Assembly (NCBI GenBank): GCA_938045315.1 | Contig: CALINM010000149.1 | Location: 1-5,105 of the forward strand | Length of the DNA stretch: 5,105 bases | Reading direction: 5' to 3' | Source of the DNA: an uncultured bacterium | GTDB taxonomy: Bacteria; CALINM01 | In this document: piece by piece, positions 1 to 5,105 of the stretch | How positions within the stretch are numbered: the stretch's first letter is position 1 | How the letters are laid out: each line of letters opens with the position of its first letter | Position numbers and translations under genes: made by a program | The notes under the pieces: model-generated | Databases searched by the model: none | What the model was told of the DNA's origin: nothing | Seen by the model: the letters and a program-made list of their open reading frames with translations, nothing else

Positions 1-434
1 TGTTTTAATGCCATATATAAATTTTTTATAGCTTTTTTTGTTGGTTTTTTATTAATATCCCATTTATATCCTTTTATTAACAGTAAATATGTTTCTGGCT
101 CTTTTCCGTATAATTCTTTTGAAAGAAATAAGATACTTTCAGGACTCATTTTATGAGAAGTATAAAAATCTTTTTTTAAAGGCGATATTTTAATTAAATT
201 ATAACTTTTTATTATACTTTTACCCGAATCAATAAAAATGACCACATTATATTTGGAAATTTCCAGCGAATCCTCAATATTTAACTGATAATTTGAATCA
301 AAATCAATATTATAAAATCTATTTTTTTTAACCCAACAACTCAAATTGTCTACGGCAAGTATTCCTAATCCATCGTCCTGTCTTCCTGGATTGCCATATC
401 CATAAATAAGAATTTTATTTGCTTTTTTTGTCAA
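1..434 (-). CDS. hoxW: HoxW, [NiFe]-hydrogenase maturation protease (partial, 3' end off window)
   Basis: HoxW is an endopeptidase of the HybD/HyaD/HoxW family. It is expected to clip the C-terminal tail of pre-HoxH once nickel is inserted, in the cytoplasm. The 144 visible codons begin MTKKANKILIYGYGNPG and show the family landmarks: a GYGNPGRQDDGLG loop (residues 12-24), an IDSG motif with D69 after a hydrophobic strand, and H94 in TSHKMSPES. D21, D69 and H94 align with the three Ni-contacting residues of HybD (Glu16, Asp62, His93). The start is TTG: an in-frame TAA lies two codons upstream, no ATG in this frame precedes the GYGNPG loop, and AAAGGG sits 8 nt before the TTG. The gene overlaps hoxH by 20 bp in the +1 frame relative to hoxH, suggesting coupled translation. 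The open frame reaches the window edge without a stop; family members are usually about 150-200 residues, so little is missing. Family assignment is secure; specificity for HoxH is inferred from position. Confidence 0.93.
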   Translation of the reverse strand, partial: MTKKANKILIYGYGNPGRQDDGLGILAVDNLSCWVKKNRFYNIDFDSNYQLNIEDSLEISKYNVVIFIDSGKSIIKSYNLIKISPLKKDFYTSHKMSPESILFLSKELYGKEPETYLLLIKGYKWDINKKPTKKAIKNLYMALK

Positions 435-1863
435 TTATATTACCCTTTGAATCAATAAGAGTAATCTCCAATGGCATTTCTCCAAATGCATGGGTTGCGC
501 AGGATAAACATGGATCATAAGCTCTGATTCCAACCTCTATGGCATTCAACATAGATTCACTAATATTAGATTTTCCATTAATCAGCGATTTGGCAATAAA
601 ATTAACAGATTCATTCATTGGCTGGTTATTATTTGTTGTTGAAACTATCAAATTGCATTTTATTATCTGATCATTATCATTTATTTCATAATCATGGAAT
701 AATGTCCCGCGTGGGGCTTCAATTAAACCTATTCCCCTTTTTGCCTTTGTTCCTTTTGTAATAAGATTTTCGCTTTGCAAATCAGGATCATTTAATAAAT
801 CCCGTATCATTTCAGCGGCATGAAGCGTTTCTATTAACCTGGCCCAATGAGTATGTAAACAAATATTACTGATTTTACCTGTTATACTTTTGTATTCTTC
901 AAACTCTTTTTGTGCAAGTGGTGTTGGTATAAAATCAACGGTATTTAATCGCGCTAAAGGTCCTACTCTATACCATCCTTTATCAGGTCCTAGTTGTTTT
1001 AAATATGGAAATTTCATATAACTCCACGAACGGACTTCTTCTCTTATATATTCAAGATAATCCTGATAATCTACATCGTTTAGTATCTTTTTCCCATTTT
1101 CATCAACAGCGCGTAAAACGCCATGATATAAATCAAGAGCTCCATCTTTTCTTACTAATGATAAATGGTTTGATGGAAATTTTGAAAAATTATCTATAAA
1201 ATCCTTATTTTTTTTATAATAACTTTTAAAAAAATCAATGGCTGCCTTTGCCCATGTTATCATCATATCTGCATTAAATGGATTTGGACCTTTTAACAGT
1301 TCATCTCTCTCTTTTATGCTTAAATTTTTATTTATTCCACCAGGTATTGCACCAGTACCATGTATCTTTTTACCTGCTGTTCTTGCTATAACTTCCTGCC
1401 CGAATTTTCTCATCAATACAGCTTGGACCGCAAGATCTTTATTTTCAATCGCAATATTAATTACATTTCTTTTTTCTGGAAGAGCATCATAACCAAATAG
1501 TAAATCTGGTGAAGCCAAATGAAAAAAATGTAGCGAATGAGACTGAAAAATCTGACCATAATGCATAAGACGCCGCATTTTTTCTGCGACTGGTGTCAAT
1601 CCTTCTCCTGTGCCTGCTCCTACTATAACATCCATTGCTTTTGCTGCCGCAAGATGATGGGAAACAGGACATATACCACATAATCTTTGAACCAAAACTG
1701 GCGCCTCCCAATATGGTCTGCCAAGAACAAACCTTTCAAATCCCCTGAATTCAACAATATGGAGTCTTGATTGAATGATATTATTATTATCATCTATTTG
1801 TATTGTAACTTTACCATGTCCTTCAACACGTGTTACTGGTTCAATTACTATTTTTTTTGCCAT
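415..1863 (-). CDS. hoxH: HoxH, NAD-reducing [NiFe] hydrogenase large (catalytic) subunit
   Basis: HoxH is the large subunit of a group 3d [NiFe] hydrogenase and holds the active site that interconverts H2 with protons and electrons. Its 482 residues are close to the usual length of about 475-490. The N-terminus has the family motif VTRVEGHG (10-17). The two nickel-binding motifs are intact: RLCGICPVSHH (60-70; C62 and C65) and DPCLSCATH (450-458; C452 and C455). Blocks such as EVRSWSYMKFPYLKQLG (276-292), EAPRGTLFHDYE (382-393) and NAIEVGIRAYDPC (440-452) are typical of HoxH. Processing is expected after H458, removing a 24-residue tail that keeps the nickel pocket open until maturation; this is HoxW's substrate. 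The ATG follows a GGAGAG Shine-Dalgarno with a rather long 9-nt gap. hoxH lies 20 bp after hoxY and overlaps hoxW by 20 bp. It is intact with no missing metal ligand. Confidence 0.98.
   Translation of the reverse strand: MAKKIVIEPVTRVEGHGKVTIQIDDNNNIIQSRLHIVEFRGFERFVLGRPYWEAPVLVQRLCGICPVSHHLAAAKAMDVIVGAGTGEGLTPVAEKMRRLMHYGQIFQSHSLHFFHLASPDLLFGYDALPEKRNVINIAIENKDLAVQAVLMRKFGQEVIARTAGKKIHGTGAIPGGINKNLSIKERDELLKGPNPFNADMMITWAKAAIDFFKSYYKKNKDFIDNFSKFPSNHLSLVRKDGALDLYHGVLRAVDENGKKILNDVDYQDYLEYIREEVRSWSYMKFPYLKQLGPDKGWYRVGPLARLNTVDFIPTPLAQKEFEEYKSITGKISNICLHTHWARLIETLHAAEMIRDLLNDPDLQSENLITKGTKAKRGIGLIEAPRGTLFHDYEINDNDQIIKCNLIVSTTNNNQPMNESVNFIAKSLINGKSNISESMLNAIEVGIRAYDPCLSCATHAFGEMPLEITLIDSKGNIIDKKSK
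443..448 (-). promoter_or_regulatory. Ribosome binding site of hoxW inside the hoxH 3' end
   Basis: The minus strand reads AAAGGG, 8 nt upstream of the TTG start of hoxW, within the hoxH codons for Ser-Lys-Gly. It is a weaker Shine-Dalgarno match than the GGAG sites of the other four genes. Its placement supports the TTG start. Together, the weak site and non-ATG start suggest that the protease is made in smaller amounts than the structural subunits (inference). Confidence 0.6.
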
Positions 1864-1883: not shown

Positions 1884-2447
1884 TTAATCATATTTTAATA
1901 CCTCATATGGTATTAACATTTCGTTTCCTACTACGAGCGCATATAAAGCATTCCATATTAAATCAGCCCTTGGCGGACACCCTGGTAAAAAATAATCTAT
2001 TTTTACTATCTCATGACAAGGATAAACTTTATTCAGTATTTTTGGTATATCAGGATCATTAGGTATTATTTTTCTTGGATTTGCATCTTTTACTGTGGGA
2101 CCATTTAAATATGCTTCTTCTAAACATTCGCTTAAAGGAATCCCATTACGAAGCGCAGGAAGTCCACCCATTATTGCACATTCACCAAGTGAAATTAAAA
2201 TATCACAATTTTTTCTGAATTCTTTTAAAACATGTACATTCTCGTCATTACAACATCCTCCTTCAATAATTCCAATATCACAATGTTTGGTAAATTTCTT
2301 TATATCGTTTATTGGCGATTTATTAAATTCTACAAGTTCAATGAGATCTAAAATTCTTTCATCTATATCAAGAAATGACATATGACAACCAAAACATCCG
2401 GCCAAAGATGTTGTTGCAATAATTTTTTTCTTATTAGGCATATTCAT
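1884..2447 (-). CDS. hoxY: HoxY, NAD-reducing [NiFe] hydrogenase small subunit
   Basis: HoxY is the small subunit, which pairs with HoxH and carries the single proximal [4Fe-4S] cluster linking the Ni-Fe site to HoxU. Its 187 residues are short compared with small subunits of membrane-bound hydrogenases, which bear three clusters, and match the compact HoxY type. The four expected ligands are visible: C18 and C21 in LAGCFGCHMSFLD, C90 in SLGECAIMGG, and C157 in LPGCPPRAD. No Tat signal is present, consistent with a soluble cytoplasmic enzyme. A CC pair (65-66, EGGCCNDEN) is not among the expected ligands. The annotated ATG lies only 3 nt after GGAG; a second ATG at 2441 (codon 3) has a better 9-nt spacing, so the protein may begin MPNKKK. 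The gene starts 11 bp after hoxU and ends 20 bp before hoxH, within the same operon. Confidence 0.97.
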   Translation of the reverse strand: MNMPNKKKIIATTSLAGCFGCHMSFLDIDERILDLIELVEFNKSPINDIKKFTKHCDIGIIEGGCCNDENVHVLKEFRKNCDILISLGECAIMGGLPALRNGIPLSECLEEAYLNGPTVKDANPRKIIPNDPDIPKILNKVYPCHEIVKIDYFLPGCPPRADLIWNALYALVVGNEMLIPYEVLKYD

Positions 2448-2458: not shown

Positions 2459-3157
2459 CTATTTTTTTTCAATATCACTGCCAATTGGATTATAATCGTA
2501 TTTTCTTTTACCTATTGGAACCGTAAATCCCTTTTCTTTTACAAGTATTGCACCTACAGGACATATATCCATACATTTTTGAGCAAGTTCATCAGAAATA
2601 TTTTTTGATGTTTCCTTATCAATATTTATTTCCAAATTTTCCCCACGTTTTCCATAAGCAAAAATTGATTTTCCCTGTTCATTTTTTATACCTCTTATAC
2701 ATCTTTTACATAATATGCAACGATTATGGTCTTTTATTAATTTGGGATGCCATGCTTCAATGGATCTTTTAGGAAACAAATAAGGAAATTGCGGAGCCAT
2801 AATTTTATATCTATATGCAAGTGCTTGTAATTCGCAATTACCACTTTTTTCACATGATGGACAAAAATGATTACCTTCTATAAATAATAATTCAATTACC
2901 GCCTTTCTGAAATTTTCCAATTCTTCTGTTGATGTTTTTATATCCATGTTTTCTGAAACTTTTGTTGTGCAGGCAGTTGCAGGTTTTCCATTAATTAAAA
3001 CCGTACATATTCTGCAAGATCCTTTTGGTGGTATCCCAGAGAAATTACATAAAGTGGGAATATAAATATTATTTTCTTTTGCTGCTTCTATAAGTTGCTT
3101 TCCCTCTTCTGCCAAACATATTTGTCCATCAATGGTAAATTTTACAAATATAGACAT
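2459..3157 (-). CDS. hoxU: HoxU, diaphorase iron-sulfur subunit of NAD-reducing hydrogenase
   Basis: HoxU is the electron-wire subunit, homologous to the N-terminal part of complex I NuoG. It joins the hydrogenase half (HoxYH) to the flavin subunit HoxF. Its 232 residues match the usual HoxU length. Domains in order: a plant-type [2Fe-2S] ferredoxin fold with C37, C48, C51 and C63 (C-x10-C-x2-C-x11-C); a His/Cys3 [4Fe-4S] site in GNHFCPSCEKSGNCELQ (H97, C99, C102, C108); and a ferredoxin-like segment with C147, C150, C153 and a distal CPVGAI motif (C199), binding another [4Fe-4S] cluster. The C-terminal PIGKRKYDYNPI segment is also typical of HoxU. The ATG has GGAG 6 nt upstream, and the Shine-Dalgarno region abuts the hoxF stop codon, so translation of hoxF and hoxU is probably coupled. 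All expected cluster ligands are present. Confidence 0.97.
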   Translation of the reverse strand: MSIFVKFTIDGQICLAEEGKQLIEAAKENNIYIPTLCNFSGIPPKGSCRICTVLINGKPATACTTKVSENMDIKTSTEELENFRKAVIELLFIEGNHFCPSCEKSGNCELQALAYRYKIMAPQFPYLFPKRSIEAWHPKLIKDHNRCILCKRCIRGIKNEQGKSIFAYGKRGENLEINIDKETSKNISDELAQKCMDICPVGAILVKEKGFTVPIGKRKYDYNPIGSDIEKK

Positions 3158-3168
3158 TGTTTTCTCCT

Positions 3169-4968
3169 TTATTTTTTATTTACGACTTCCATATAGTCTT
3201 TTATAGCTGAGTTTTCATCAAAATCAGGATTAAACAACTCAATATTACCTTTGACTTTTTCCTCATAGAGTTGTCTAAAATTTTTAATTGTACTTATCGT
3301 AGGATTGGCTGCGGTTTGGCCTAAACCACATCTGTTGTTTTTCATAAAAGCAGCCCAACTTAATAAATTATCAATATCACTTTTTGTTCCTTTCCCATCA
3401 ACAATCTTTTTTATAATTTTTTCATAAATAACTGTTAATGTGCGACAAGGCACACATGAACCACAAGATTCTTCCTTAAAAAAATGTTGAAAGTTTAAAA
3501 CAACATCTTTTATCAAATCCCTTTTTTTACTGATTATAATTAATGAACCACCTGTTGATAGATCTTCATAAGCTAAAATCCTGTTAAATTCTTTTTCAGA
3601 AATACAGTTTCCCGATGGCCCGCCTACCTGCACCGCAAGAACATCCTGAGTTTTTGCTCCTGCTTTTTTTAATATATCATTCACAGAAAAACCCCATTCA
3701 AGTTCATAAATACCTGGTCTTTCACAATCACCGGAAATACTTAAAACTTTTGTGCCTTTGGACTCTTTTGTCCCCATTTTATTATACCACTCAGCTCCGT
3801 TTAATATAATTTTAACAGCAGTACAAAATGTTTCTACATTATTTACTACTGTTGGTTTATTTAAATAACCACTTTCTACTGGGAATGGAGGCCTATCACG
3901 GGGTTCACCCCGTTTTCCCTCAGCAGATTCAATTAATGCTGATTCTTCACCACATACATAAGCCCCTGCCCCACATTGTATTCTTATATCAAAATCAAAT
4001 CCTTTTTTTCCATTTATAAAACTACCTAATAATCCTTCTTCTCTCATTTCTTGCAATACATGTTCTAAATAATTTTTCATATATCTATATTCATTTCTCA
4101 GATAAAGTATGCCATATTTTGCACCAACAGCATATCCAGCTATAATCATACCTTCAAAAACTAACTTGGGTAATTCAGTAAGAATTACTCTGTCCTTAAA
4201 TGTCCCTGGTTCACCTTCATCGGCATTACAGAAAATATATTTAATGTCACCTTTTGCCTTTCTTGCTATTTCCCATTTCAACCCGGTTGGAAATCCGGCA
4301 CCGCCTCTGCCACGTAAATATGATTTTTTTAATTCTTCTATAACATCAGTAGAACTTAATTCTTTAACAATTTTTTTAACAGCTTCCCCTGGGGTATAAT
4401 CTGAAAATATAACAGCACCTTTTTCCCTAATATTATTATTAACCAAAGACCGCATTAAATAGTGAGAATTATTTCCTTCACCATATTTATTTCCTTTTAT
4501 ATCTTCTATTGATTTTTTTTCCTTCATTAATTTAACAATATTTTTTACTTTATCTGGTGTGAGTGAAGGAAATGGGTGTTCATTTATTAAAGCAGCTGGT
4601 TCTTGATCACTCATACCAATACATGCTGTTTCAAATAACCCTATTAACCCGTCAGGAGTTACCTGACCTGTTTTAATACCAAGTTCTTCTTCAAAAACCT
4701 TTTTGATTTCCTCTTTACCATAAAAATTAGAAACAACACTATCATTTAAATATATTGTGTATTTTCCACGTGGTTCTCTATGAAAAAAATGATAAAAACT
4801 TAATGTCTGTAATATTTCTACCTGCGGAATATCTAGGGATTTTGATATTTGCTCCACAGTCCAATCATTTATAAACCCAAGTTCTGTCTGCACATCAAGC
4901 AAAATATCCATTAATCTTGTTTCATCACCATTGTATTTTTTTATTATTGCATTTATTGTATTGCCCAT
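3169..4968 (-). CDS. hoxF: HoxF, NAD(H)-oxidoreductase flavoprotein subunit with fused HoxE/NuoE-like domain
   Basis: HoxF is the diaphorase subunit that exchanges electrons between FMN and NAD+/NADH. Its 599 residues match the roughly 600-residue HoxF of Cupriavidus necator type. Residues 1-150 form a NuoE/HoxE-like domain (LMDILLDVQTELGFI, LSFYHFF, VTPDGLIGLFETACIGMSD), and residues from about 215 form the NuoF-like domain. In the latter, RGRGGAGFPTGLKW (219-232) is the FMN-binding glycine loop, NADEGEPGTFKDR (248-260) and GAGAYVCGEESAL (333-345) belong to the FMN/NADH site, and ESCGSCVPCR plus NRCGLG supply C502, C505, C508 and C547 for a [4Fe-4S] cluster. The N-domain has only one cysteine (C116), so the usual four-Cys [2Fe-2S] site is absent. 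The ATG at 4968 is chosen because GGAG lies 5 nt upstream. The frame stays open to a TTG at 5037, but that stretch contains the Shine-Dalgarno, the putative operator and the promoter. It is the first gene of the operon. Confidence 0.97.
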   Translation of the reverse strand: MGNTINAIIKKYNGDETRLMDILLDVQTELGFINDWTVEQISKSLDIPQVEILQTLSFYHFFHREPRGKYTIYLNDSVVSNFYGKEEIKKVFEEELGIKTGQVTPDGLIGLFETACIGMSDQEPAALINEHPFPSLTPDKVKNIVKLMKEKKSIEDIKGNKYGEGNNSHYLMRSLVNNNIREKGAVIFSDYTPGEAVKKIVKELSSTDVIEELKKSYLRGRGGAGFPTGLKWEIARKAKGDIKYIFCNADEGEPGTFKDRVILTELPKLVFEGMIIAGYAVGAKYGILYLRNEYRYMKNYLEHVLQEMREEGLLGSFINGKKGFDFDIRIQCGAGAYVCGEESALIESAEGKRGEPRDRPPFPVESGYLNKPTVVNNVETFCTAVKIILNGAEWYNKMGTKESKGTKVLSISGDCERPGIYELEWGFSVNDILKKAGAKTQDVLAVQVGGPSGNCISEKEFNRILAYEDLSTGGSLIIISKKRDLIKDVVLNFQHFFKEESCGSCVPCRTLTVIYEKIIKKIVDGKGTKSDIDNLLSWAAFMKNNRCGLGQTAANPTISTIKNFRQLYEEKVKGNIELFNPDFDENSAIKDYMEVVNKK

Positions 4969-4982: not shown

Positions 4983-5000
4983 GTGTGAAATTTATCACAA
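4983..5000 (-). promoter_or_regulatory. Putative Rex (NADH/NAD+ sensor) operator
   Basis: The minus strand reads TTGTGATAAATTTCACAC, an inverted repeat of TGTGA arms around 6 A/T bases. Against the Rex consensus as I recall it for Firmicutes (TTGTGAA-W4-TTCACAA), 16 of 18 positions agree. The site sits between the predicted -10 box and the hoxF ribosome binding site, about +1 to +20 of the inferred transcript, where a bound repressor would block transcription. Rex leaves DNA when NADH is high, which would make sense for an enzyme that can dispose of NADH electrons as H2. The same TGTGA-N6-TCACA core also fits the CRP/FNR family, so the regulator is inferred, not proven. Confidence 0.6.
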
Positions 5001-5007
5001 GTATAAC

Positions 5008-5037
5008 TATATAAGCATTTTTTAAAAAATTTGTCAA
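5008..5037 (-). promoter_or_regulatory. Sigma-70-type promoter of the hox operon
   Basis: The minus strand carries a perfect TTGACA (-35) at 5037-5032, an 18-bp spacer and TATATA (-10, 4 of 6 to consensus) at 5013-5008. TATAGT two bases further on is a better hexamer, but at 20 bp spacing. The spacer contains the A/T palindrome ATTTTTTAAAAAAT (5017-5030), which may bend the DNA. Transcription would begin near 5001, giving a leader of about 33 nt. In AT-rich DNA -10 boxes are easily found by chance; the intact -35 and the position make this the best candidate. Confidence 0.65.
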
Positions 5038-5056
5038 GTGTTTTTATTTTCCATAC

Positions 5057-5076
5057 AACGCGTTAGAAAACGCGTT
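5057..5076. repeat. Paired palindrome AACGCGTT-AGAA-AACGCGTT upstream of the hox promoter
   Basis: Two identical 8-bp perfect palindromes are separated by 4 bp, with centres 12 bp apart, in otherwise very AT-rich DNA. The pair ends about 20 bp upstream of the -35 box, centred near -65 from the inferred start, a usual place for an activator. Because each copy is its own reverse complement, the pair can also fold as an 8-bp stem with a 4-nt loop. On the plus strand the hairpin is followed by T5 (5075-5079, partly in the stem), so a terminator for plus-strand transcription is an alternative. The binding protein is unknown to me. Confidence 0.55.
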
Positions 5077-5105
5077 TTTAATGAAAAACTAAATTTTTTT
5101 ATTAT

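Follow-up and report, generated by a model that had tools for sequence, protein, structure and literature searches.

The 18-bp palindrome that precedes a hydrogenase operon in an uncultured bacterium is, judging from its sequence, very likely an operator for the Rex repressor, which would represent a new host for an established mechanism. The window analyzed is the entire 5105-bp contig, the minus strand of which carries hoxEF, hoxU, hoxY, hoxH and a maturation protease gene. The features are as follows.

5032..5037, minus strand: predicted -35 box TTGACA; the hyd and aat promoters and the hox promoter of the Goldbacteria genome G146 (TTGACT) have a similar layout
5008..5013, minus strand: predicted -10 box TATATA, after an 18-nt spacer and 7 nt before the operator; consensus match only (4/6)
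4983..5000, minus strand: putative Rex-type operator TTGTGATAAATTTCACAC, based on consensus match, upstream-region p value, identity to the 7WB3 operator and conservation in Goldbacteria
3169..4968, minus strand: hoxEF fusion (599 aa) with NuoE-like [2Fe-2S] and NuoF-like FMN/NADH domains (Pfam PF01257, PF01512, PF10589)
2459..3157, minus strand: hoxU (2Fe-2S, NuoG N-terminal-like); the best NCBIfam model is HoxU, under the cut-off
1884..2447, minus strand: hoxY, hydrogenase small subunit (PF01058)
415..1863, minus strand: hoxH, [NiFe] hydrogenase large subunit (PF00374)
3..434, minus strand: hydrogenase maturation protease, truncated at the contig boundary; TIGR00072 under the cut-off; complete in the matching contig L051

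The NADH/FMN module, HoxU, HoxY and HoxH of a NAD-linked [NiFe] hydrogenase of the Hox type all are present. The assignment to the NAD-linked type follows from the NADH/FMN domain of the NuoE/NuoF-like fusion and from the affinity of HoxH, whose nearest solved relative is the NAD-reducing hydrogenase 5XF9 (E 3.5e-158), with the subgroup within the group 3 [NiFe] hydrogenases not being settled by NCBIfam.

On the minus strand, which is that of the hox operon, the upstream region is arranged in the order TTGACA, 18 nt, TATATA, 7 nt, the palindrome, GGAGAG and the ATG at 4968. The 18-mer ends 14 nt before the hoxEF start and thus is positioned between the predicted promoter and the ribosome-binding site, just after the -10 box as the first-pass annotation had described. 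The same annotation was correct that the site agrees with the Rex consensus TTGTGAA-W4-TTCACAA at 16 of 18 positions, the only differences being at position 7 (T for A) and position 18 (C for A); the consensus reported for Staphylococcus aureus Rex, TTGTGAAW4TTCACAA, is the same 18-bp palindrome (PMC2883068). The window site also matches at 16 of 18 positions, including 14 consecutive identical bases, the Thermotoga maritima TM0201 operator that was co-crystallized with Rex (PDB 7WB3; PMC8836258). One half of the operator is GTGTGA in the window and TTGAGA in TM0201, the Goldbacteria side of the comparison being known from sequence. Dinucleotide shuffling of the 137 bp that precede hoxEF produced a site with ≤2 mismatches in 0.2% of cases (p about 0.002), and the exact pattern TGTGA-N6-TCACA has only three copies in the assigned 1.86-Mb assembly. 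When the window is taken in its entirety, finding two sites with ≤3 mismatches is unremarkable (mean of 0.89 in shuffled sequences). The palindrome as such is confirmed as real and unlikely to have arisen by chance.

The location downstream of the -10 box is that of a repressor site, the promoter itself being predicted; the hox promoter was absent from the output of an automatic promoter scan of the window. The location bears also on the main rival reading, that a CRP-family regulator of Goldbacteria binds the palindrome, which is improbable. The TGTGA half-site is the same core, the TGTGA-N6-TCACA pattern suits both the Rex and CRP families, and the left half of the window site has T at position 7 as in CRP sites. 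However, a CRP/FNR activator would be positioned upstream of or overlapping the -35 box, whereas the window site is elsewhere, and CRP would not activate from a site downstream of the -10 box, although repression by CRP would be possible from there. FNR was set aside as a ligand: the FNR box, TTGAT-N4-ATCAA, does not fit the palindrome.

Sequence comparisons among genomes, all of which are metagenome-assembled (MAGs), indicate that the contig probably is misbinned in its assigned genome, G000. The window is identical at 5104 of 5105 nt to a 107-kb Candidatus Goldbacteria contig (L051) of genome G145, and in two other Goldbacteria MAGs (G146 and G147) the operon likewise adjoins this contig's GTPase gene, which its context marks as hydF-like. 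The operon is absent from G001 and G002 which are relatives of G000. Threonyl-tRNA synthetase of G000 is 55% identical to the Goldbacteria protein, compared to 73-74% among the Goldbacteria MAGs. Very recent transfer of the DNA into G000 instead of misbinning is less likely. As the contig probably is misplaced, Goldbacteria provide the relevant genome and the regulator was sought there. Accordingly, the Rex protein of G000 (L001) was discarded as a candidate for the cognate regulator, its identity being 88% within its own genus and 40% with Goldbacteria Rex1; the probable misassignment of the contig would have directed a bench test to the wrong Rex protein. The sites detected in the G000 assembly (L002, L003, L005-L009) lie within coding sequence or beside unrelated genes, and were not considered further given that the contig appears foreign to it. 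A scan of that assembly for TTGTGA-N6-TCACAA with two mismatches was mostly noise (134 vs 94). Near-duplicate contigs in G146 (L094/L102 and L114/L115) suggest that this MAG merges two strains.

The search for rex in the source genome yielded one gene in the assigned assembly, for the more distant protein, and two genes in the matching G145 genome. The latter specify Rex1 and Rex2 which are 46% identical and both exceed the NCBIfam Rex subfamily cut-off, with Rex1 passing in addition the equivalog model NF003993 (244 vs 217 bits). Rex1 shares 43% identity with T. maritima Rex, and most of the residues that contact DNA and NAD are conserved. Among the listed DNA contacts, Arg12, Ser33, Gln46, Arg48, Lys49, Ser52, Gly58, Arg60, Gly61 and Tyr64 are retained, of which Gln46, Arg48, Lys49, Arg60 and Gly61 contact bases, and the nucleotide site keeps Asn92, Tyr100, Asp115, Lys120 and Asp191. 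The vicinity of rex1 showed no good site. A variant that is compatible with a Rex operator, in which Rex2 from the molybdenum gene run acts instead of Rex1, is possible but unlikely. G145 does possess two proteins that pass the Rex models, but Rex2 has Lys-Lys in place of Arg-Gly at the minor-groove contacts, and G146 keeps the hox site, yet the search of that MAG yielded rex of a single type, the Rex1 orthologue (62% identical to Rex1), in two near-identical copies that probably are strain duplicates. A single CRP-family protein that exceeds the Pfam cut-off is also encoded by each of G145, G146 and G147; in G146 and G147 the recognition helix of this protein is TRETTTR, in which RETTTR is like that of E. 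coli CRP. As both Rex and CRP-family proteins are encoded, their presence alone does not decide the regulator.

The motif was examined upstream of orthologous hoxEF genes and is kept in the two further Goldbacteria MAGs and in some Bacteroidota, one of which matches the consensus perfectly. The G146 site is TTGTGATAAAATTCACTT and the G147 site is TTGTGATAAAATCACTT. The latter (L053) has lost one base, and the -35 region that is present in L052 is missing between direct repeats TATAAATAATA, possibly through a real deletion or an assembly error. Upstream DNA was sufficient for analysis in 39 hoxEF relatives, of which nine have a site with ≤3 mismatches within 120 bp (0.81 expected) and three a site with ≤2 mismatches (0.09 expected), the shuffles overstating independence among sequences that share ancestry. 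The other 30 of the 39 have no site of ≤3 mismatches within 120 bp and the motif is absent from most distant relatives. In Bacteroidota, perfect or one-mismatch sites precede hox in L077 and L057, and rex is beside hox or hyp genes in L066, L077, L062 and linked contigs. In L066, rex ends just before hoxEF, but no good site was seen there despite this adjacency, whereas a one-mismatch site is directly before rex in L063/L101. The proximity of rex to hox in these bacteria argues against CRP as the ligand. Retention of the site in orthologous promoters across species, with three of the 39 relatives at ≤2 mismatches, similarly argues against the very remote prospect that the palindrome is a chance occurrence in A+T-rich DNA to which no regulator binds.

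The core pattern GTGA-N6-TCAC has four copies in G145, all four of which are in promoters. The targets are as follows.

hox
hydCBA, the [FeFe] hydrogenase
class V aminotransferase-serA
moeA, at the head of a long same-strand run with a molybdo-oxidoreductase and rex2; the promoter boxes are weak

The hox and hyd sites recur in G146 and G147, in which a hdrC-hdrB-like pair also has a site, the hdr promoters being outside the scored 170-bp frame. Raw counts of the pattern in the three genomes are not above those of the reversed control (4 vs 3, 11 vs 11 and 5 vs 6), as would be expected of a chance palindrome, and genome-wide counts were rejected as evidence. Only position and gene context separate the sites from the control. 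Across the three genomes, 13 of 20 sites are located in promoters compared to none of the 15 reversed-pattern copies for which loci were fetched (Fisher p 6e-5), which argues further against chance; when orthologues were merged by eye the values were 6/11 and 0/13 (p 0.003). In the promoters of hox, hyd and aat, the operator begins ~7–14 nt downstream of the predicted -10 box. Position 7 is A, the Rex form, in 15 of the 20 related half-sites, which speaks against CRP, as does the correspondence of the targets, namely two hydrogenases, an aminotransferase-serA pair and a rex-containing run, with Rex regulons. The first-pass annotation had proposed Rex as the ligand, and the rex genes, the conserved site and the Rex-like target set support this proposal. 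The motif is found before other redox genes, at the [FeFe] hydrogenase, the aminotransferase-phosphoglycerate dehydrogenase and the rex-containing run, which are established categories of Rex target and not typical CRP/FNR targets.

An operator arranged in this way makes biological sense and belongs to a kind that is already familiar; here it is traced in Goldbacteria, for which no work on Rex was found in the open literature. The closest parallel is Caldicellulosiruptor bescii, in which Rex binds upstream of the [FeFe] hydrogenase Hyd, the [NiFe] hydrogenase Ech, a class V aminotransferase-3-PGDH and rex, as tested by EMSA (PMC6391272). The Goldbacteria sites precede a similar set of genes, but the phylum is different and the [NiFe] enzyme is of the HoxEF-U-Y-H type rather than Ech. 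Autoregulation involves rex itself in C. bescii, whereas in Goldbacteria it would involve rex2, inside the molybdenum gene run. This run comprises molybdenum-cofactor and molybdo-oxidoreductase genes on the same strand as the second rex (L143, G145:C38:12000-25090). In G145, hydCBA, two radical-SAM-like maturase genes and the hydF-like GTPase gene immediately precede hox and share its orientation (L142, G145:C6:6900-18000) and therefore both hydrogenase systems form one block.

Rex is dimeric, with a DNA-binding winged-helix domain and a Rossmann domain that binds NAD(H). At low NADH/NAD+ ratios, Rex would bind the palindrome and obstruct RNA polymerase immediately after the -10 box. NADH binding releases Rex from DNA (PMC8836258), so that accumulation of NADH would permit expression of the hoxEF-U-Y-H-protease operon. 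The NAD-linked [NiFe] hydrogenase could then re-oxidize NADH by H2 production; the reaction catalyzed by such enzymes is reversible, with disposal of H2 being the likely direction for Hox. The [FeFe] hydrogenase operon, aminotransferase-serA and the molybdo-enzyme run with the second rex are probably under the same control in Goldbacteria. More tentatively, and with a prospect somewhat short of even, hox and hyd, which share one block with a Rex site heading each, may constitute a single NADH-controlled set with the serine and heterodisulfide-reductase-like genes, and rex2 in the similarly headed molybdo-enzyme run may form a nested, self-controlled branch. Rex control of hox would offer a rule, open to testing, for how H2 metabolism is regulated in an uncultured phylum, and would add a NAD-linked hydrogenase of the Hox type to the experimentally known set of Rex targets.

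A dispersed intergenic repeat of ~85–90 bp, consisting of an A+T-rich leader and a hairpin (GTTTTTCCGTAAAAACGCGTTTTCTAACGCGTTTTTACGG; hairpin z -3.4), occupies about positions 5048-5105 of the window on the minus strand. Rfam gave no match in the window or in four of the repeat loci. With ≤1 mismatch, the repeat core has 48 copies in G145 compared to one for the control, and 0–1 copies in two related MAGs. Nearly all of the copies examined in G145 (L166-L194) are intergenic, with many just upstream of genes and some followed by TTGACA; one copy is upstream of the hox promoter and another is upstream of hyd.
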